Part shown: in pieces, positions 5 through 7,758 of the stretch
Position numbering within the stretch: position 1 is the stretch's first letter
Layout of the letters: every line of letters begins with the position of its first letter
Assembly (NCBI GenBank): GCA_008534395.1
Contig: SHMQ01000021.1
Span: 1-34,699, forward strand
DNA length: 34,699 bases
Direction of reading: 5' to 3'
DNA from: Candidatus Acidulodesulfobacterium acidiphilum
Lineage (GTDB): Bacteria > SZUA-79 > Acidulodesulfobacterales > Acidulodesulfobacteraceae
Notes under the pieces: generated by a model
Seen by the model: the letters and a program-made list of their open reading frames with translations, nothing else
The model's database searches: none
Told to the model about the DNA's origin: nothing
Program-made: the position numbers and the translations under genes

Positions 5-80
5 TGGTGGGCTGTGTCGGGATCGAACCGACGACCTACTGATTAAGAGTCAGTTGCTCTACCGATTGAGCTAACAGCCC
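5..80 (-). tRNA. tRNA-Lys (anticodon CUU), CCA encoded
   Basis: Read on the minus strand, this folds as a complete cloverleaf of 76 nt including an encoded CCA. The acceptor arms are GGGCTGT and ACAGCCC. The anticodon stem is ACTGA/TCAGT around the loop CTCTTAA, which gives anticodon CTT and decoding of AAG lysine codons. The T arm carries the usual GGTTCGATCC. It is transcribed away from the rest of the window. Discriminator base is A. Confidence 0.95.
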
Positions 81-261: not shown

Positions 262-933
262 ATGATATTTAAAAACAGGATAGAAGCGGGGAAACTGCTT
301 GGAGAAAAGTTGTCGGCGGAGAAATTCGGCGGCGGAAATACCGTGGTTATTGGTTTGTTAAGAGGCGGAATTCCAGTTGCTTATGAAATAGCGGCAATAT
401 TAAAATCACCGTTAGACGTGGCGTTGGTAAGAAAAATAGGTGCGCCTAATCAGGAAGAGTTGGCCATAGGGGCGGTAGTAGACGGAAAATCGCCGAAAGT
501 TTATCTTAACGAATCTCTTATATCGCGCATTAATATCCCTGCGGGATACTTAGGGCGCATGGAGAAGATTAAACTTAAAGAAATAAGGGAAAGGGAAAAA
601 ATATACAGGCAGGGAGCCGAAAAGATTGATGTAAGCGGCAAAACGGCTATAATAGTGGATGACGGCATTGCTACCGGAGCGTCTGCCATGGCGGTAATAG
701 AAGCAGTTAAGGATGAAAAACCTGCGAAAATAATCGTAGCTGTGCCGGTTATAGCCGCCGATACTATGAGAGAATTAAGGAAAGTCGTCGATAAAGTAGT
801 AGTTTTAAGCGCTCAGGAAGAGTTTTACGCGGTTGGGGAATTTTACGAAGATTTCAGCCAGACGACGGACGAAGAGGTGTTATATCTTCTGCAAAAATCA
901 AAAAATAGCATAAATTTTATAAACACAAATTAA
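262..933 (+). CDS. Phosphoribosyltransferase (COG1926-like PRTase)
   Basis: This 223-residue cytosolic protein is a type I phosphoribosyltransferase of the stand-alone COG1926 kind. The PRPP-binding loop is clear: VDDGIATGAS at residues 132-141, preceded by hydrophobic strand residues. A conserved N-terminal GLLRGGIPVA (31-40) and VRKIGAPNQEELAIGAV (56-72) are also typical of this group. The family transfers or releases ribose-5-phosphate using PRPP, but its substrate is generally unassigned, so I give no gene symbol. The ATG has GGAGAA about 5 nt upstream. It stands alone, divergent from tRNA-Lys and separated by more than 200 bp from the next gene, so it is probably monocistronic. Family assignment is secure and the substrate is unknown. 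Confidence 0.85.
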   Translation: MIFKNRIEAGKLLGEKLSAEKFGGGNTVVIGLLRGGIPVAYEIAAILKSPLDVALVRKIGAPNQEELAIGAVVDGKSPKVYLNESLISRINIPAGYLGRMEKIKLKEIREREKIYRQGAEKIDVSGKTAIIVDDGIATGASAMAVIEAVKDEKPAKIIVAVPVIAADTMRELRKVVDKVVVLSAQEEFYAVGEFYEDFSQTTDEEVLYLLQKSKNSINFINTN

Positions 934-1042
934 TTATATAAAATAGTTTAAAAGAAGATAAACTAAGTTTAACTTTATTTTAAATTCATATTCTTAAAAT
1001 AATATCGATAAAATTTATGAATTCTGAATTATTATTATAGAA

Positions 1043-1059
1043 TTGTGACTTAAATCAAT
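1043..1059 (+). promoter_or_regulatory. CRP/FNR-type operator-like site upstream of the DUF59 gene
   Basis: The 17-mer TTGTGACTTAAATCAAT has a CRP-like left half (TGTGA) and a degenerate right half (TCA), within an outer AATTG...CAATT dyad. A TAAACT hexamer at 1081-1086 could be the -10 box. That would place the site's centre near -41, the position of a class II activator. A nearly identical site in the same orientation precedes the hemerythrin operon on the minus strand (4173-4189), which is the main reason to believe it. Confidence 0.6.
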
Positions 1060-1150
1060 TTAAACTTTTTTTGAATTTGATAAACTTTATATTAAAAGGA
1101 AGTAAAAAATAAAATCGAATAGATTTAAAATTTTAATATAGGAGTTTATC

Positions 1151-1459
1151 ATGGCGGAATTTAATGAAAAGGACGTATTGGAAAAATTAAAAGGCATTAT
1201 AGACCCTGAGCTTGAAGTAAATATAGTCGATCTTGGGCTGGTATATAAAATCAATTTAAATCAAACAGGCGGCGTCTGTTTAGATATGACTTTAACGGCA
1301 AAGGGCTGTCCTATAAGCGACGTTATAAAATATGAGGTAGAGGAGGCAGTTAAAAGCATTCCAGGCGTTAACGGCGTAAAAGTAAATTTCGTTTGGGAGC
1401 CGGAATGGAATCCTTCGATGATTAAGACCGATGCCCTAAAAAGACTTAAAACGCATTAA
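1151..1459 (+). CDS. DUF59/MIP18-family metal-sulfur cluster assembly factor
   Basis: This 102-residue protein consists of one DUF59 (MIP18, SufT/PaaD-like) domain. The family signature DPE is at 18-20, followed by NIVDLGLVYKI (24-34). The conserved cysteine lies in KGCP (residue 53), and the C-terminal GVKVNFVWEPEWNPSMI is typical. Members help mature or repair Fe-S or other metal centres in the cytoplasm. An RBS GGAG lies 7 nt before the ATG. The gene sits alone ahead of a membrane protein (86-bp gap) and downstream of a CRP/FNR-like site. Stand-alone DUF59 genes often accompany DUF2249 and hemerythrin genes in nitric-oxide or redox-stress clusters, which fits here. Which target it serves is not visible. 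Confidence 0.88.
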   Translation: MAEFNEKDVLEKLKGIIDPELEVNIVDLGLVYKINLNQTGGVCLDMTLTAKGCPISDVIKYEVEEAVKSIPGVNGVKVNFVWEPEWNPSMIKTDALKRLKTH

Positions 1460-1545
1460 TTTTTTTAATAACGCGGTATGCAAAAAATTGCCGGTATAAA
1501 ACAAAATATAACAAAAGCATAAAAAAAGGACGGTAAATAAAATAT

Positions 1546-2802
1546 ATGAATACAACGGATAGTTCTATAGAAATAGCATTAAAACATATAAAAACCGCGC
1601 TTATTTTTTTGCCGGTTTTTTTCATAGTAATGTTTTTTGATTATAAGAGTTTTAACGGATATTTTTTTATGAATAATAAAATAATAGCCCTTACGCACAT
1701 ATTTACGCTTGGTTTTTTGCTCATGGTAATTATGGGTGCTTCTTATATGCTTTTGCCTGTGGCGCTCGGCGTGAAAATTGCTTACGAAAAGCTTTTTATT
1801 CCGGTTTATTACGGATACGTAATTTCTTTATTGCTTTTCGTTATTGGAATGCATTATCTCTGGAGCGCTATGATAGCCGCGGGCGGCATCCTCCTTTTTA
1901 TATCGGTTTTAACATATAATATAAACATTTTGATAAGTATAAAGAAGGTAAAAAAATGGGATTATTCTTCTTTGGGAATAGCATTTTCGTATTCTTATCT
2001 GCTTATAGGATTGTCCGTAGGACTGTATTTGGCTTTAACTTTTTATTTTAAAATAGGGCTGAACATTTACGATATATTGCAAGACCATATTTATCTTATG
2101 TTCATAGGTTTTGTCATAATGCTTTTTATAGCCGTTTCATACAGGCTGCTGCCGATGTTTTATATGACTAAAGCGCCGGATAATTTATACTGGAAAACGG
2201 ATTTAACCGTTATTAACGCAGGAATTATCGCAATGCTCGCATCTTCGTTTTTTGGAAACGTGTCCGCCGTTCATATTTATTTAAATGAAGCCGGAGGATG
2301 GCTTTTAGGTGCGGGTATCCTTGTGTACTGCTATATATTTTTTAGCCTTATGTTAAAAAGGCTTAAAAAAAAGTTCGATATTACGACGTTTTATCTATAC
2401 GCCGGCATTATATTTTTAGTTGCGGCGGTATTTGCCGGTCTGATTATAAATATCGTTCCGCAGGAAAAATTATTCGTATTAATCGGCATAAACGGCGATT
2501 ATTATCTTTATTATATATTCGCTTTTTTAGGACTGTTCAGCTTTGCCGGAATGGTAATTATAGGTTTCCTGCATAAAATATTTCCGTTTCTTATAAGCCT
2601 TAAATCTTTTGAAAAGGCAAAAAAAGGAGCGTACGGTAAACTGTTTTCGGATTTGAAAACTAAATATTTTGAATACGTAATATTTGCAATGTTTCTGGCA
2701 GGCTCTATTCTTTGGATATTTTATTTGGTACAGCTTTCCGCTGCAGTTCTTTTTGCGGCATCTATACTGCTTATGCTGCATATATTTTCTATGGGCTGGT
2801 AA
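1546..2802 (+). CDS. Polytopic membrane protein, heme-copper oxidase subunit I / NnrS-like
   Basis: This 418-residue protein is almost entirely hydrophobic, with roughly 11-12 membrane segments and no signal peptide. I see a repeated helix signature: His51-I...GF...M.G.SY.LLP (51-71), His181-I...GF...A.SY.LLP (181-203), and a third looser copy ending GFLHKIFPF (340-348, His343). Spaced histidines near helix ends and pseudo-threefold repeats are features of the heme-copper oxidase subunit I/NnrS superfamily, so heme or metal binding is plausible. It is not a normal terminal oxidase: no second subunit or cytochrome c gene is adjacent. It follows the DUF59 gene and faces a hemerythrin/DUF2249 pair, which suggests a role in NO or oxygen handling. 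The start has GGACGG about 12 nt upstream. The superfamily call is inference from motifs. Confidence 0.6.
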   Translation: MNTTDSSIEIALKHIKTALIFLPVFFIVMFFDYKSFNGYFFMNNKIIALTHIFTLGFLLMVIMGASYMLLPVALGVKIAYEKLFIPVYYGYVISLLLFVIGMHYLWSAMIAAGGILLFISVLTYNINILISIKKVKKWDYSSLGIAFSYSYLLIGLSVGLYLALTFYFKIGLNIYDILQDHIYLMFIGFVIMLFIAVSYRLLPMFYMTKAPDNLYWKTDLTVINAGIIAMLASSFFGNVSAVHIYLNEAGGWLLGAGILVYCYIFFSLMLKRLKKKFDITTFYLYAGIIFLVAAVFAGLIINIVPQEKLFVLIGINGDYYLYYIFAFLGLFSFAGMVIIGFLHKIFPFLISLKSFEKAKKGAYGKLFSDLKTKYFEYVIFAMFLAGSILWIFYLVQLSAAVLFAASILLMLHIFSMGW

Positions 2803-2819
2803 GAAAAACAGTAATTTAA

Positions 2820-2866
2820 AAGGCGATAACGGCATCAAATTTGAATTTTGACGCCGTTATCGCCTT
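2820..2866. terminator. Hairpin terminator between convergent genes
   Basis: A perfect 14-bp stem, AAGGCGATAACGGC (2820-2833) with GCCGTTATCGCCTT (2853-2866), can be extended inward by TCAAA/TTTGA past one mismatch. It lies 18 bp after the rightward membrane-protein gene and about 100 bp after the stop of the leftward DUF2249 gene, so it probably serves both strands. The T-run after it is weak on either strand. Confidence 0.7.
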
Positions 2867-2966
2867 GATTTATTCTTTATATTATTAAGTTTATCTCTGT
2901 CGCCGTTATTGAGTTACTGCCAGTTATCTTTGTACCTGTTCTATTTTTATCTTTTCCTCTTATTTC

Positions 2967-3506
2967 TTATTTCCAAATTTTTATCTTATAAAGGTCGTCC
3001 GCAGTTTCTTCCGTCAAGAATTTATATCCGGCGTCTTTTAATCTTGGATATAGATGCACAGGTTTTCTTTCGTGTATTATATGTATCGTTTCGTCGTTCT
3101 TTAAGTTTTCCAGAGCCGCAAATATTTTTAAAAGAGGCTGAGGCGGCTCAAGCCCTCTAACGTCAAGTTCAATAATATTCTGCTTGTGCGCAAGGTTTTT
3201 TAAATCCTCGTCGTCGAATTGATTTTCGTCTGCCCCTTCGAAAACTTTTATCGGTTTTATGTCGCCGCCGCTTCTAAAAAAAATTATTTCGAATCCTTCA
3301 GGCATATTATTGGTTATATGTTCAAAGCCCTTGTTTTTTAAAACCGAATAAAGCGGAAAAGGTTCGAAACTGTTAATTAAAACAAGAGCTTCTGCTTCAT
3401 TTAAATTATTAACCGCTTCCATTATTTTTTTAAACGGATCGTTTCCGCTTTTAATGTCTTCCCTTACGTCGAGCGTTATTTTTTTTAAGTCCGTTACGTC
3501 TTTCAT
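2967..3506 (-). CDS. Tandem DUF2249-domain protein
   Basis: This 179-residue cytosolic protein carries a clear C-terminal DUF2249 domain (about 110-179). It has ELDVRGLEPPQPLLKIFAAL, then HIIHERKPVHLYPRL, then KFLTEE. An N-terminal copy (about 8-75) has the same plan: ITLDVRE..., ALVLINSFEPFPLYSVLKNKGFEH. The domain adopts a TusA-like fold and its biochemistry is unsettled. Its genes recur beside hemerythrins, NnrS, nitric oxide reductases and DUF59 genes. An RBS AAGGAG precedes the ATG. The gene lies 70 bp downstream of the hemerythrin gene on the same strand, almost certainly one operon driven from about 4140. The first copy lacks the PPxP and HERxP residues of the second and may be structural only. 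Confidence 0.85.
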   Translation of the reverse strand: MKDVTDLKKITLDVREDIKSGNDPFKKIMEAVNNLNEAEALVLINSFEPFPLYSVLKNKGFEHITNNMPEGFEIIFFRSGGDIKPIKVFEGADENQFDDEDLKNLAHKQNIIELDVRGLEPPQPLLKIFAALENLKNDETIHIIHERKPVHLYPRLKDAGYKFLTEETADDLYKIKIWK

Positions 3507-3576
3507 AATATTATATTCTCCTTATTTTTTAAAAAAATTAAATTTAATTTTCTGTATTAATTATAACGTTAAGGTA

Positions 3577-4056
3577 TTAATTAATCGTAATCATTTTTTT
3601 CATAATATCCTGTTTTTCGTTCTGACCGAGCTGCATTTCGGCAATCTGAAACAATATACCGTCTTCTTTGTCTTCATGTTCGGATAAAAGCTCTATCAAT
3701 GCTTTCCCTGCAGACGCTATGGACTTATAATCTTTACTTCCCATTTTTTTATTTAAATCGCCGGTTAACTCTCTGCAGCTATTATGTTCTATAAGCATAA
3801 CGTTTATAGGACCAGTTTCAATGCCTATATAATTGCCCAAAATAGGAAATAAAGCATCTTCCTCTCTTTTAAAGTGCAATTCGACGTCTTTATCTAAATA
3901 CTCGGATATTTCATTAAGTTCCGAATCTGTAACGCCGTTAGGTATTTTTTTTAAAAAATTTTCAAATTTACTTAAAGCGGTTCTTATTTCGGTATGCTCT
4001 TCTCTTAAAGCGTCAAGAGGATTAAGTTCAGCATCTTTTTCGGTATACGTATTCAT
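3577..4056 (-). CDS. Hemerythrin HHE-domain protein
   Basis: This 159-residue protein is a single four-helix hemerythrin-like domain, likely carrying a non-heme di-iron centre that binds O2 or reacts with NO. Candidate ligands fall at the expected spacing: His21 (LREEH), His61 and Glu65 (ELHFKREED), His91 (IEHNSCREL), and His127 with an acidic residue near 131-132 (LSEHEDKED). A strong RBS AAGGAG is placed 6 nt before the ATG. It is the first gene of a two-gene minus-strand operon with the DUF2249 gene. A CRP/FNR-like site and TAAAAT -10 box lie upstream. It lacks the N-terminal ScdA-like domain and the cysteine pair of RIC/YtfE iron-sulfur repair proteins, so direct assignment to RIC is not justified. 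Oxygen sensing or storage is an alternative to NO detoxification. Confidence 0.9.
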   Translation of the reverse strand: MNTYTEKDAELNPLDALREEHTEIRTALSKFENFLKKIPNGVTDSELNEISEYLDKDVELHFKREEDALFPILGNYIGIETGPINVMLIEHNSCRELTGDLNKKMGSKDYKSIASAGKALIELLSEHEDKEDGILFQIAEMQLGQNEKQDIMKKMITIN

Positions 4057-4146
4057 AGTTTCTCCTTGTTTAGTTTAATTATTGCTTATATATATTTGAA
4101 TATTCCGCATCTTTTAGCATCTTTTGGTTTTTTTATTATGTATATT

Positions 4147-4152
4147 ATTTTA
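4147..4152 (-). promoter_or_regulatory. -10 box of the hemerythrin-DUF2249 operon
   Basis: Read on the minus strand this is TAAAAT, a five-of-six match to TATAAT. It puts the transcription start near 4140, about 84 nt before the hemerythrin ATG. The CRP/FNR-like site at 4173-4189 is then centred close to -41 and replaces a -35 element, which is the layout of class II activated promoters. Confidence 0.5.
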
Positions 4153-4172
4153 TCATAAAACTAATTTATAAC

Positions 4173-4189
4173 ATTGACTAAAGTCACAA
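4173..4189 (-). promoter_or_regulatory. CRP/FNR-type operator-like site upstream of the hemerythrin operon
   Basis: On the minus strand it reads TTGTGACTTTAGTCAAT. It differs from the site at 1043-1059 at two of 17 positions and has the same orientation towards its gene. An inner GACT-TT-AGTC dyad is visible. The distance to the -10 box differs by only one base between the two copies. Together they suggest one regulator of the CRP/FNR superfamily (FNR-, DNR- or HcpR-like) for both operons; the regulator gene is not in the window. Confidence 0.62.
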
Positions 4190-4255
4190 ATTAAATTTAT
4201 TAATTTAATAAATTATAAATAACTTAACGGTTTATTTTTTTATGCAGAAATAGAA

Positions 4256-4307
4256 AATGAAAATTCCCCGCATATAGTATTTAATAAATATGCGGGGAAT
4301 TTTCATT
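4256..4307 (-). terminator. Hairpin terminator downstream of nrdJ
   Basis: A perfect 20-bp stem (4256-4275 paired with 4288-4307; core AAAATTCCCCGCATAT) closes a 12-nt AT loop. It lies 78-129 bp past the nrdJ stop, in the 328-bp space between nrdJ and the hemerythrin gene. A smaller hairpin (GACCGTTT...AAACGGCCGTC) lies at about 4322-4347, nearer to the stop. No strong T-run follows on either strand, so it could also be a 3'-end-stabilising structure. Apart from these hairpins and the hemerythrin promoter I see no gene in 4057-4384. Confidence 0.6.
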
Positions 4308-4384
4308 CGGATTGTTTTACCCGACCGTTTCTCTAAACGGCCGTCGGATTATATTAATTATGCTATATAATTATAATTATTACA

Positions 4385-6835
4385 TCAGCCGCAATCGGAA
4401 TAGCCGCAGTCTAAACATACCGTACATCCTTCGGCATGCTTAAGATTTGAGCCGCCGCAGGAAGGACATGCGCCCCTTCCTTGAACGGTATGGTTTTTAG
4501 AATGTGTGCCGACGGGGTTTGCAGATGATTCTATTAACGGTTTTTTTGCGTCGGATGATAGATTTTCACAAGAAGTTATTTTTTCTTTAAGGCTTTTTTC
4601 TAAAGCTTTTCCTATCGCATCTGCGCAGGAATATATAATATTGCCGCCGAAACCGTATGGAATGTTACATCTTATGCCTTTTAGCTGGTTTATTATTTCT
4701 TCCGCGCCTATTCCCGACCTTAACGCAAGGCTTACCATTCTTCCAGTGGATTCGGTTTGCGACTGAGCGCAGCCGCCTGATTTGCCGATGGAGTTAAATA
4801 TTTCGAAAGGATTACCGTTTTCGTCGTAGTTGATTGTAACGTACATGGGTCCGCATCCCGTGACGGTTTTAACTGTTACGCCCCTTATTATATCTGGACG
4901 TTTTCTTGGTTCTATCTGCCCGCCGCTTTTTTGGTCCGATGTTTCTTTTGTTTCTTTTTCGTGAGAACTTCCGGAAGAACCAGCGGTCAATACCTGCTCT
5001 CTCGAACCGTCCCTATATACGGTTATGCCTTTTAAATTAAGATTAAAGGCAAGGGTGTAAACCTCTTCTATATCTTCTTTTTTAGCGTAGTTAGGAAAGT
5101 TGACCGTTTTACTCACCGCATTATCGGTAAATTTTTGAAAAGCCGCCTGAGTCATAACGTGCCATTTCGGCGTAATATCATGCGACGTTATAAATATTCT
5201 GCTTAAATATTCGTATTCTTTTTCAGTTAATAAATCCGCAATATCTTTTTTGTAAGTTTTTCCGAGACTGCCGTTTTTCGCTATATAATCTATTAATTTA
5301 TCGGAATACGCGCCCATTGATTCCAAAACCGTTTTAAGATTTTTATCCGTTTCTATTAATCTTTGTTTATCCAGTACGCGCCTTTCGTAAGCCAATGCGA
5401 AAAGCGGTTCTATGCCGCTCGAAGCGCCGCCTATCATACTTATAGTGCCTGTAGGCGCTATTGTCGTGGTAGTGCCGTTTCTCATAGCTTTATATCCTTT
5501 TTCTTCCCATAAAGAGCCTTTAAAATTCGGAAAACTGCCGCGTTCGGTTCCAAGCTCTTCTGATTTTACTTTAGACTCCTTATCAATGAAGCCCATGATA
5601 TTTTCGGCTATTTTAAGCGCAAGTTCGCTGTCGTACGGTACGCCCAATTTTATAAGAGTATCGGCATATCCCATTATTCCAAGCCCTATTTTTCTGTTGG
5701 AAAGCGTCATTTCTTTAATTTTTTCTAAAGGATAACGGTTTTTTTCTATTACGTTATCTAGAAAATGAACGGCTGTATGAACGGTTTGTTTAAGTTTATC
5801 GAAGTCTATGTAGCTGAGGTAACCGTCAATGATATCGTCCGGATTGCTTTCAAGTTTTTTCAGATATTCCGCAAGATTAGCCGCGTCTTGTTTAATTTTG
5901 TTTTCCTTAACGAATTTTCCGATGTTAATAGACCCTAAGTTGCACGATTCGTAAGCGACTAAAGGTTGTTCCCCGCAAGGATTTGTCGCTTCTATTTTTC
6001 CGGCATTCGGTACCGGATTTAGTTTGTTAATCCTGTCGATAAACACGATCCCAGGTTCGCCGCTCGACCATGCCGTTTCGACGATTAAATCAAAAACCTC
6101 TTTCGCGTTTAAATATTTAGTAATTTCGTTATTCCTTGGGTTTTTTAACGGATAGTCTTCATTTTTTAAAGCATGATTCATAAAATCTTCCGTTATTGCT
6201 ACTGAAATATTAAAATTGTTTAATTTTGACGTATCTTTTTTCGAGGTAATAAAATCTATTATATCGGGATGGTCTATCCTTAAAATGCCCATATTGGCGC
6301 CCCGCCTCGTTCCTCCCTGCTTAATAGCTTCGGTTGCGCTGTTAAATACCTGCATAAACGAAACCGGACCGCTTGAAACCCCTTTAGTAGAATGCACGGT
6401 ATCGTTTTTAGGCCTTAAAGACGAAAAAGAAAAACCGGTTCCGCCGCCGCTCTGATGTATAAGCGCCGTATTTTTTATAGTTTCGAATATCGACTCCATA
6501 GAGTCTTCGATTGGCAGTACGAAGCAAGCCGAAAGCTGCTGCAGAGGCCTTCCCGCATTCATTAATGTAGGCGAATTGGGAAGAAATCGAAGGGAAGACA
6601 TTTCTTCAAAAAAAATATTTGCCGTAGTTTTAGCATCTTGTTCGGATTTGCCGTAATTTAAGTCTGCCGACGATATGTTTTCGGCGACTCTCTTAAAAAG
6701 TCCTGTTACGGTTTCGATAATTTCGCCCTTCTCGTCTTTAGCCAGATATCTTTTTTTCAGGACGGTAACCGCATTTTCCGAAAATTTTTCCGTAAGCGGG
6801 TCGTTGCTTAAAATATCCGAATTTTGTTTTTTCAT
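4385..6835 (-). CDS. nrdJ: Adenosylcobalamin-dependent (class II) ribonucleotide reductase
   Basis: This 816-residue enzyme reduces ribonucleotides to deoxyribonucleotides using a radical generated from adenosylcobalamin, so it needs no oxygen. The key cysteines are visible: Cys104 (LSACF) and Cys298 (ESCNLGSIN) as the redox pair, and Cys287 with Glu289 in NPCGEQPL as the thiyl-radical site. The phosphate-binding TTTTIAPTGTISM also is present. A TSCPD domain follows (GPMYVTINYDENG, GGCAQSQTESTGR). A C-terminal zinc ribbon with four CxxC-like cysteines (ACPSCGG...GCTVCLDCGYSDCG) ends the chain, as in many bacterial NrdJ. The ATG has GAGGAG just upstream. No class I or III genes are nearby. Two NrdR-box-like palindromes and a TTGACA -35 lie in front, indicating NrdR control. 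It is monocistronic. Confidence 0.97.
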   Translation of the reverse strand: MKKQNSDILSNDPLTEKFSENAVTVLKKRYLAKDEKGEIIETVTGLFKRVAENISSADLNYGKSEQDAKTTANIFFEEMSSLRFLPNSPTLMNAGRPLQQLSACFVLPIEDSMESIFETIKNTALIHQSGGGTGFSFSSLRPKNDTVHSTKGVSSGPVSFMQVFNSATEAIKQGGTRRGANMGILRIDHPDIIDFITSKKDTSKLNNFNISVAITEDFMNHALKNEDYPLKNPRNNEITKYLNAKEVFDLIVETAWSSGEPGIVFIDRINKLNPVPNAGKIEATNPCGEQPLVAYESCNLGSINIGKFVKENKIKQDAANLAEYLKKLESNPDDIIDGYLSYIDFDKLKQTVHTAVHFLDNVIEKNRYPLEKIKEMTLSNRKIGLGIMGYADTLIKLGVPYDSELALKIAENIMGFIDKESKVKSEELGTERGSFPNFKGSLWEEKGYKAMRNGTTTTIAPTGTISMIGGASSGIEPLFALAYERRVLDKQRLIETDKNLKTVLESMGAYSDKLIDYIAKNGSLGKTYKKDIADLLTEKEYEYLSRIFITSHDITPKWHVMTQAAFQKFTDNAVSKTVNFPNYAKKEDIEEVYTLAFNLNLKGITVYRDGSREQVLTAGSSGSSHEKETKETSDQKSGGQIEPRKRPDIIRGVTVKTVTGCGPMYVTINYDENGNPFEIFNSIGKSGGCAQSQTESTGRMVSLALRSGIGAEEIINQLKGIRCNIPYGFGGNIIYSCADAIGKALEKSLKEKITSCENLSSDAKKPLIESSANPVGTHSKNHTVQGRGACPSCGGSNLKHAEGCTVCLDCGYSDCG

Positions 6836-7020: not shown

Positions 7021-7758
7021 ATGATAGATAAAATTACGGGCGGAAACGCCTTAGGCGTCGTTGCCGGAAGCGCGGGTACTATGAGTATATTATCGCATAT
7101 TCTTACGACGAATATAGTAGTAAAATTAGTTTTGCTGTTACTTTTTATTTTTTCGTTAATATCCTGGGCAATTATATTTTACAAACTGCGTTATCTTGGA
7201 AAAGCAAGAAAAGAGGATAAAGAATTTCTAGATCTTTTTTGGGAATCCAAAAGACTCGATTATGTTTATACCGCCGCAAGAAATTTGGATTACAGTCCTA
7301 TAGCTTTTATGTTTAATATAACATATAAAGAATTGCTGAATATTAAGAAAAAAACGGCGGACGATCAGCAGAAAAGCGATAAGGAAAGAAATGAAGAAAA
7401 TTTAGCTTATGTGGAAAGGGCATTAAAAAAATCTCAACTTTCATCTATAGCAAAACTTGAAGTTTCCCTGCCTTTCCTTGCTACGGTGGGCTCTACCGCT
7501 CCTTTTATAGGACTTTTTGGGACCGTATGGGGCATAATGACGTCTTTTGAAAGTATCCAAAGAGCCGGAACGGCAGGTCTTGCAGTAGTAGCGCCTGGAA
7601 TAGCCGACTCTCTGATAGCTACGGCCGCAGGACTTTTTGCCGCTATACCGGCCGTTATAGCTTATAATTATTATTCCAATAAAGTAAGGGTTATAGTAAA
7701 CGAAATGGTAGATTTTGCTTATGAATTTATGACTATTATCGAAAGGCAGATTTTATAG
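7021..7758 (+). CDS. tolQ: TolQ, proton-channel subunit of the Tol system
   Basis: This is a 245-residue inner-membrane protein of the TolQ/ExbB/MotA family. With TolR it forms the proton-driven motor that energises the Tol complex during envelope constriction at division. The first membrane helix is VVKLVLLLLFIFSLISWAII (about 33-52). After a charged cytoplasmic loop come two long helices (LEVSLPFLATVGSTAPFIGLFGTVWGIM and GIADSLIATAAGLFAAIPAVIAYNYY). An in-frame ORF extends upstream to 6898, but I start at ATG 7021. GGAGGA (7002-7007) precedes it, and the extra 41 residues are a lysine- and isoleucine-rich translation of AT-rich DNA. TolR follows after 10 bp. The order matches tolQRA. Confidence 0.93.
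   Translation: MIDKITGGNALGVVAGSAGTMSILSHILTTNIVVKLVLLLLFIFSLISWAIIFYKLRYLGKARKEDKEFLDLFWESKRLDYVYTAARNLDYSPIAFMFNITYKELLNIKKKTADDQQKSDKERNEENLAYVERALKKSQLSSIAKLEVSLPFLATVGSTAPFIGLFGTVWGIMTSFESIQRAGTAGLAVVAPGIADSLIATAAGLFAAIPAVIAYNYYSNKVRVIVNEMVDFAYEFMTIIERQIL

Follow-up and report, generated by a model that had tools for sequence, protein, structure and literature searches.

A probable operator pair at two convergent operons

The window considered here, a stretch of 34.7 kb on contig SHMQ01000021.1 of Candidatus Acidulodesulfobacterium acidiphilum, carries two convergent operons, one for a DUF59 protein and a distantly COX1-like membrane protein, the other for a hemerythrin and a DUF2249 protein (Table 1). 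A nearly identical 17-mer precedes each of them, and it is very likely, judging from the sequence comparisons set out below, that both are operators of one activator of the CRP/FNR family, which would respond to nitric oxide (NO) or other reactive nitrogen species.

The two 17-mers, TTGTGACTTAAATCAAT at 1043-1059 on the plus strand and TTGTGACTTTAGTCAAT at 4173-4189 on the minus strand, differ at positions 10 and 12 only, lie between genes and are each directed at their own operon; re-reading of the window thus confirmed the description given in an earlier note on this DNA. That note placed the sites about 92 and 117 bp before the ATGs of the DUF59 gene (1151) and the hemerythrin gene (4056), and 91 and 116 bases were found to lie between site and ATG. 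The -10-like hexamers, TAAACT (1081-1086, plus) and TAAAAT (4152-4147, minus), start 38 and 37 bases, respectively, past the first base of the site, which bears out the claimed difference of one base, and both are preceded by TG, as in extended -10 elements. If transcription starts about 7 bases past the hexamer, a predicted position, the operators would be centred at -40.5 to -41.5. This is close to the -41.5 at which a class II activator site takes the place of the -35 element.

Table 1. Features around the operator pair, in window coordinates
Feature	Position	Strand	Remarks
tRNA-Lys	5-80		
Phosphoribosyltransferase gene	262-933		
CRP/FNR-type operator, DUF59 operon, TTGTGAC-TTAA-ATCAATT	1043..1060	+	Exact match; counterpart in 26/27 family DUF59 loci, own included
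Extended -10 element TGATAAACT	1078..1086	+	Alignment A1; predicted transcription start ~1093
DUF59 / FeS_assembly_P (SufT/PaaD-like) protein, 102 amino acids (aa)	1151..1459	+	Pfam PF01883, E 3e-20
Membrane protein of 418 aa, largely helical, distantly COX1-like (heme-copper oxidase I-like)	1546..2802	+	
Hairpin between convergent operons	2820..2866	both	Fold -30 and -32.6 kcal/mol, z -8.7 and -9.1
DUF2249 (TusA-like) protein, 179 aa	2967..3506	-	PF10006, E 2e-30; PF01206, E 1e-10
Hemerythrin HHE protein, 159 aa	3577..4056	-	PF01814, E 7e-18
Extended -10 element TGATAAAAT	4147..4155	-	TG-N-TAAAAT spacing; predicted transcription start ~4140
CRP/FNR-type operator, hemerythrin operon, TTGTGAC-TTTA-GTCAATG	4172..4189	-	Exact match; family conservation, own locus included
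B12-dependent ribonucleotide reductase gene	4385-6835		Beyond the hemerythrin gene

Conservation of the operators

Within a single genome the signal is confined to the exact level. When up to three mismatches are allowed, the window holds 4 matches against 4.1 expected, the exact ones being exactly the two sites. In the whole source assembly (G000; 2.09 Mb in 70 contigs, cited as C with their number), up to two mismatches gave 13 matches, two of them exact and both at these promoters, the other 11 with two mismatches (one, C2:39894, inside an open reading frame, ORF), and the reversed-pattern control gave 8; a related pattern with at most one mismatch gave 4 matches and its control 5. The genome-wide scan suggested in the earlier note therefore finds the exact motif at these two promoters and nowhere scattered. 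Chance rates in the window and a one-mismatch count not above control in the assembly would also fit a coincidence, or a conserved element of non-regulatory nature, so that conservation had to decide.

For the hemerythrin promoter 41 genomes were searched and 31 matched, and the best locus of each of 24 family genomes was used; the counts exclude the seven matching genomes of other families and second copies, unless these are named. A site of the form WTGTGAY-N4-RTCA lies upstream of the hemerythrin gene in 21 of these 24 loci (those lacking it are L037, L043 and L046; in G018 and G006 the other hemerythrin copy bears the site), and the spacing to TG-N-TAAAAT is the same in all 21, with the hexamer at 37 in 17/17 unique segments. 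The locus of the 418-aa membrane protein is present in 27 of 30 family genomes, and direct reading located a matching site before DUF59 in 26 of the 27, L066 with the left half TTTTGA among them; here the 23 unique segments have the hexamer at 38 (18 segments) or at 36 (5 segments). First-order Markov shuffling of the hemerythrin upstream regions left on average 0.004 loci, and at most 1, with a site. For DUF59 the regions entered this test with approximately placed limits, and 22/27 sites were found there against the 26/27 read directly.

Conservation at both promoters spans six genera and proteins down to about 50% identity. The genomes share ancestry and are not independent draws; spacers and flanks vary among them, and the box and the -10 element are largely constant. 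Moreover, the consensus WTGTGAYNNNNRTCAMT has 61 matches in the 30 genomes versus 2 for the reversed control: by reading, 26 stand before hemerythrin genes (one, in G044, by position only), 23 before DUF59, 6 before a gene for a 180-aa protein, 1 before hcp (G005) and 1 before a gene in G045 that we take to be HdrC-like. The remaining four are doubtful, since G045:C23 and G003:C7 have no convincing downstream gene, G012:C78 is a site inside an ORF, and G016:C1:784447 stands before a presumably LpxK-like ORF. With two promoters conserved across the genera, a near-fixed spacing and this excess over the control, the probability that the pair is accidental or without regulatory function becomes negligible; the earlier note had likewise held that a coincidence would be odd, and the near-fixed spacing fits the class II geometry near -41 that it had proposed, the transcription start being a predicted one.

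After removal of identical segments, which reduced 47 to 40 (alignment A1), T2, T4, G5, A6, T13, C14 and A15 were invariant, position 7 was always T or C and never A, and position 12 always A or G and never T. These last two positions bear on Rex, a sensor of the NADH/NAD+ ratio whose site is TTGTGAA-N4-TTCACAA and from which the 40 segments differ at both. Rex and HcpR1 sites are reported to be identical in Desulfovibrio (PMC5701242), and a Rex operator could pass for the element found here. Nevertheless, the Rex N-terminal domain PF06971 was found in 0 of 30 genomes, while 7 of the 14 known genomes used as control gave a match; this largely refutes the Rex explanation, which we regard as extremely improbable.

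A model of operator plus promoter, built from the sequence of the 40 segments, places the two G000 sites at E 3.9e-9 and 5.4e-8 and the next match at 0.042 (best 150 of 3,565 candidates scored). Because both sites were among the training sequences, the informative part is the gap to the next match. No third promoter of this type was seen in the G000 assembly among the matches listed, that is, among the best 150 of 3,565 candidates. G000 has a second hemerythrin gene (C1:121609; L146:7601-8116), for which the stretch that was read contains no site; this gene is divergent from what is presumably a GcvH-like gene (L146:6914-7363), and the operator-bearing hemerythrin gene of G045 has the same divergent neighbour. 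In one genome, G045, an operator with the hemerythrin-type -10 spacing (C50:6010-6026; L137:3511) lies upstream of the HdrC-like gene mentioned above, by our assumption that of a heterodisulfide reductase subunit.

Further targets in relatives

The family search for Prismane proteins gave 16 matches in 14 of the 30 genomes. Twelve of them are relatives' hcp genes whose upstream DNA can be read, and one is the truncated copy of G000; the three longer matches (L148-L150) were rejected as hcp, as they seem to us rather carbon monoxide dehydrogenase-like, and have no box. When the box is defined as the core TGAY-N4-RTCA plus a TGTGA half, a TCACA half or both, it is present upstream of 11 of the 12 relatives' hcp genes (shuffle mean 0.012 of 12), for example as AAGTGACTTTAATCACAT and ATGTGATTAAAATCAT, and 9 of the 11 box-bearing genes have their best -10-like hexamer starting at 38. 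The earlier expectation that hcp would be found among the downstream genes was thus borne out by a related box in relatives, where hcp appears as a putative target in the manner of HcpR regulons. The G000 copy of hcp is truncated where contig C54 ends (the match reaches base 7644 of 7646), and the fragment has 90% DNA identity to the hcp region of G005.

The gene for the 180-aa protein gave 19 matches, of which the 14 loci L167-L180 were examined and L181-L185, remote or partial, left out. Eight of the 14 have the box (L141, L140, L134, L135, L132, L133, L168 and L169; shuffle mean 0.004). The gene was not found in G000 and the protein matches no Pfam family (best E 0.08); its family is a candidate new member of the regulon. 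L168 (G015:C48) and L169 (G043:C227), which belong to different genera and are both 83% identical to the query, resemble each other in the gene as well as in the upstream DNA shown, and this likeness suggests recent transfer or cross-binning.

The candidate regulator

Three proteins of G000 have the HTH_Crp_2 domain, encoded at C28:12505-13134, C1:112443 and C36:5355. The C28 protein, of 210 aa, combines a cyclic nucleotide (cNMP)-binding domain with a helix-turn-helix and is unlinked to both operons. Its type occurs in 27 of the 30 genomes, including all 19 that are at least 90% complete with at most 5% contamination, and 20 of the 30 have it as their sole HTH_Crp_2 protein above the cut-off; 19 of these 20 carry at least one operator, the exception being G010, 59% complete. 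This supports the single regulon under an unlinked CRP/FNR regulator that the earlier note had postulated, and elimination by the HTH_Crp_2 census makes the C28 protein the best candidate, in a census made through this DNA-binding domain and not genome-wide through PF00027, which could miss a CRP-like sensor whose DNA-binding domain is a different one.

The proteins at C1:112443 and C36:5355 also have the HTH_Crp_2 domain and might bind the sites in place of the C28 protein. However, a second HTH_Crp_2 protein over the cut-off is confined to 7 of the 30 genomes, and 22 of the 23 that lack one, all except G010, keep at least one operator. Furthermore, the recognition helices of both proteins (SRQRTT) lack the arginine at what we take to be position 185 in CRP numbering, and their involvement is accordingly very improbable. 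The two are paralogous CRP-like regulators (C1 at about 112 kb, L015; C36 at about 5.4 kb, L016), each beside a paralogous gene for a multi-CXXCH, cytochrome-like protein, which by sequence is a duplicated regulator-cytochrome pair.

The recognition helix of the C28-type regulator, GTAREVVSR, is identical in all 21 aligned of its 27 orthologs, and its REVVSR portion is taken, by mapping on the CRP sequence, to hold the equivalents of R180 and E181. Rodionov et al. 2005 (PMC1274295) connect R180 and E181 with the bases G3 and A6 of the site; the operator consensus contains these two bases and fits this specificity rule. Among PDB chains, that of DNR (3dkw) matches the regulator at E 2.8e-16 and is outscored by nine chains of the CRP/FNR family. 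Against the CRP equivalog model it reaches 68 bits, where the cut-off for the cyclic AMP sensor is 266.

Oxygen-sensing FNR is the most serious competitor as regulator, in which case the regulon would answer anaerobiosis and not reactive nitrogen. In favour of FNR, its box is similar to the core TGAY-N4-RTCAA, its promoters typically have class II geometry, and some of the targets would be equally suited to microaerobic life. On the other hand, the C28 protein of G000 contains no cysteine (3 of the 21 aligned orthologs have one), so that it would not carry the FNR-type iron-sulfur (Fe-S) cluster, and co-regulation with hcp, hemerythrin and DUF2249 better suits nitrosative stress. We therefore hold an FNR to be unlikely. 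The earlier note had thought of a regulator like FNR, DNR or HcpR; the first of these becomes unlikely with the missing cysteine, and the regulator is closer in kind to the other two.

Comparison with known regulons

The candidate shares with E. coli CRP, whose site is TGTGA-N6-TCACA, the left half TGTGA, the R180/E181 equivalents of the above mapping and the cNMP-binding domain, and differs from it by a degenerate right half, the small number of sites and the low score on the CRP model. The closer parallels are HcpR and DNR. According to PMC1274295, both lack the FNR cysteine motif, the HcpR1-type regulons of Deltaproteobacteria use the site wTGTGAnnnnnnTCACAw, and HcpR regulons often include hemerythrin-like genes. 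In the same way, the putative regulator here has no FNR cysteine motif, appears to combine R180/E181 with a TGTGA half-site, and would have hcp and hemerythrin-like genes as targets. Unlike HcpR sites, the operator lacks symmetry, since its right half is FNR-like (TCAA) before DUF59 and in the two G000 sites, and the DUF59/COX1-like operon is a main target; the likeness to HcpR is one of features. The DNR site of Pseudomonas, given as TTGATnnnnATCAA in the same source, agrees in the right half ATCAA and the N4 spacer, whereas the operator here has G at position 3.

Additionally, the DUF2249 domain has been linked to the hemerythrin and heme-copper oxidase families (PMC11218638, PMC6282519), and in a haloarchaeon denitrification raises the expression of DUF2249 genes (PMC11218638). 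DrpA/DUF2249 proteins and haloarchaeal denitrification clusters thereby resemble the present locus, where DUF2249 is accompanied by hemerythrin and by a distantly COX1-like protein. Unlike those clusters, the six window genes up to position 6835 that were put through family searches include no nitrate-respiration gene.

A regulon of the HcpR/DNR-like type with CRP/FNR operators is of a known kind, and the one described here is a new member of it in this lineage. A full-text search of the available literature returned no paper joining DUF59, hemerythrin and DUF2249, and the particular target set may be undescribed there under these names.

Proposed mechanism and function

The sites, their conservation and spacing, the shared targets and the presence and near-uniqueness of the regulator are results of computation. 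From them we infer that the C28 protein is the one that binds the sites, acts as an activator and responds to NO. The activator would bind as a dimer with its centre near -41, covering the -35 region, and would recruit RNA polymerase to the extended -10 element by class II activation. In this manner it would switch on the DUF59 and COX1-like operon together with the hemerythrin and DUF2249 operon and, in relatives, hcp and the 180-aa gene as well.

By its content the regulon, like those of HcpR and DNR, seems to answer to NO or to further reactive nitrogen species, and its products would give protection from NO or similar stress. Hcp and hemerythrin are predicted to handle NO or hydroxylamine and DUF59 to help rebuild Fe-S clusters, while the COX1-like protein may serve NO reduction or electron transfer. 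A further proposal, speculative and rather doubtful at present, is that of a very small regulon (two promoters in G000) under one main CRP/FNR protein which, having no conserved cysteine or histidine, senses NO by novel chemistry; in it the DUF59/COX1-like pair would form an NO-removing or Fe-S-protecting membrane system co-expressed with hemerythrin and DUF2249.

Several observations weigh against one NO-responsive regulon under the C28-type activator. The DUF59 gene of G042 (L076) and the hcp gene of G043 have no site, and the promoter of hcp in G000 is unreadable, as the gene runs off the contig end. The right half-site is weak, TCAA and not TCAC, at DUF59 and at both G000 promoters. As for the regulator, no histidine or cysteine, which would mark a heme or Fe-S site, is conserved in all 21 aligned orthologs, no convincing site stands before its gene in the 21 loci looked at, and G015, G024 and G045 (86, 85 and 78% complete) have operators and no detected regulator.

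The conserved operator ties DUF59, the COX1-like protein, hemerythrin and DUF2249, four poorly understood families, to hcp. It thereby gives their role in nitrosative stress a testable basis and names a probable regulator in an uncultured lineage.

Proteins and hairpins of the locus

The hemerythrin protein weakly resembles the C-terminal part of YtfE/RIC (YtfE chains in PDB, E 0.003). The likeness of the 418-aa protein to heme-copper oxidases is a distant one: PF00115 matched 5 of 7 aligned orthologs at a limit of E 5 (best E 4.8e-4), the window's own copy being unmatched, and a PDB profile search with the protein gave no match. Its structure model is of low confidence (predicted local distance difference test, pLDDT, 42.5). 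Heme-copper oxidases have six metal-binding histidines; in the 418-aa protein H14, H51 and H181 are invariant in 27/27 orthologs, and H343 is present in 25.

A consensus terminator scan of 900-4400 listed neither of the two hairpins of the region. The one between the convergent operons is, from its predicted fold, a probable bidirectional terminator. The other, a strong hairpin at 4257-4310 on the minus strand (z -8.7), lies between the ribonucleotide reductase gene and the hemerythrin operator and is probably the terminator of the ribonucleotide reductase gene.

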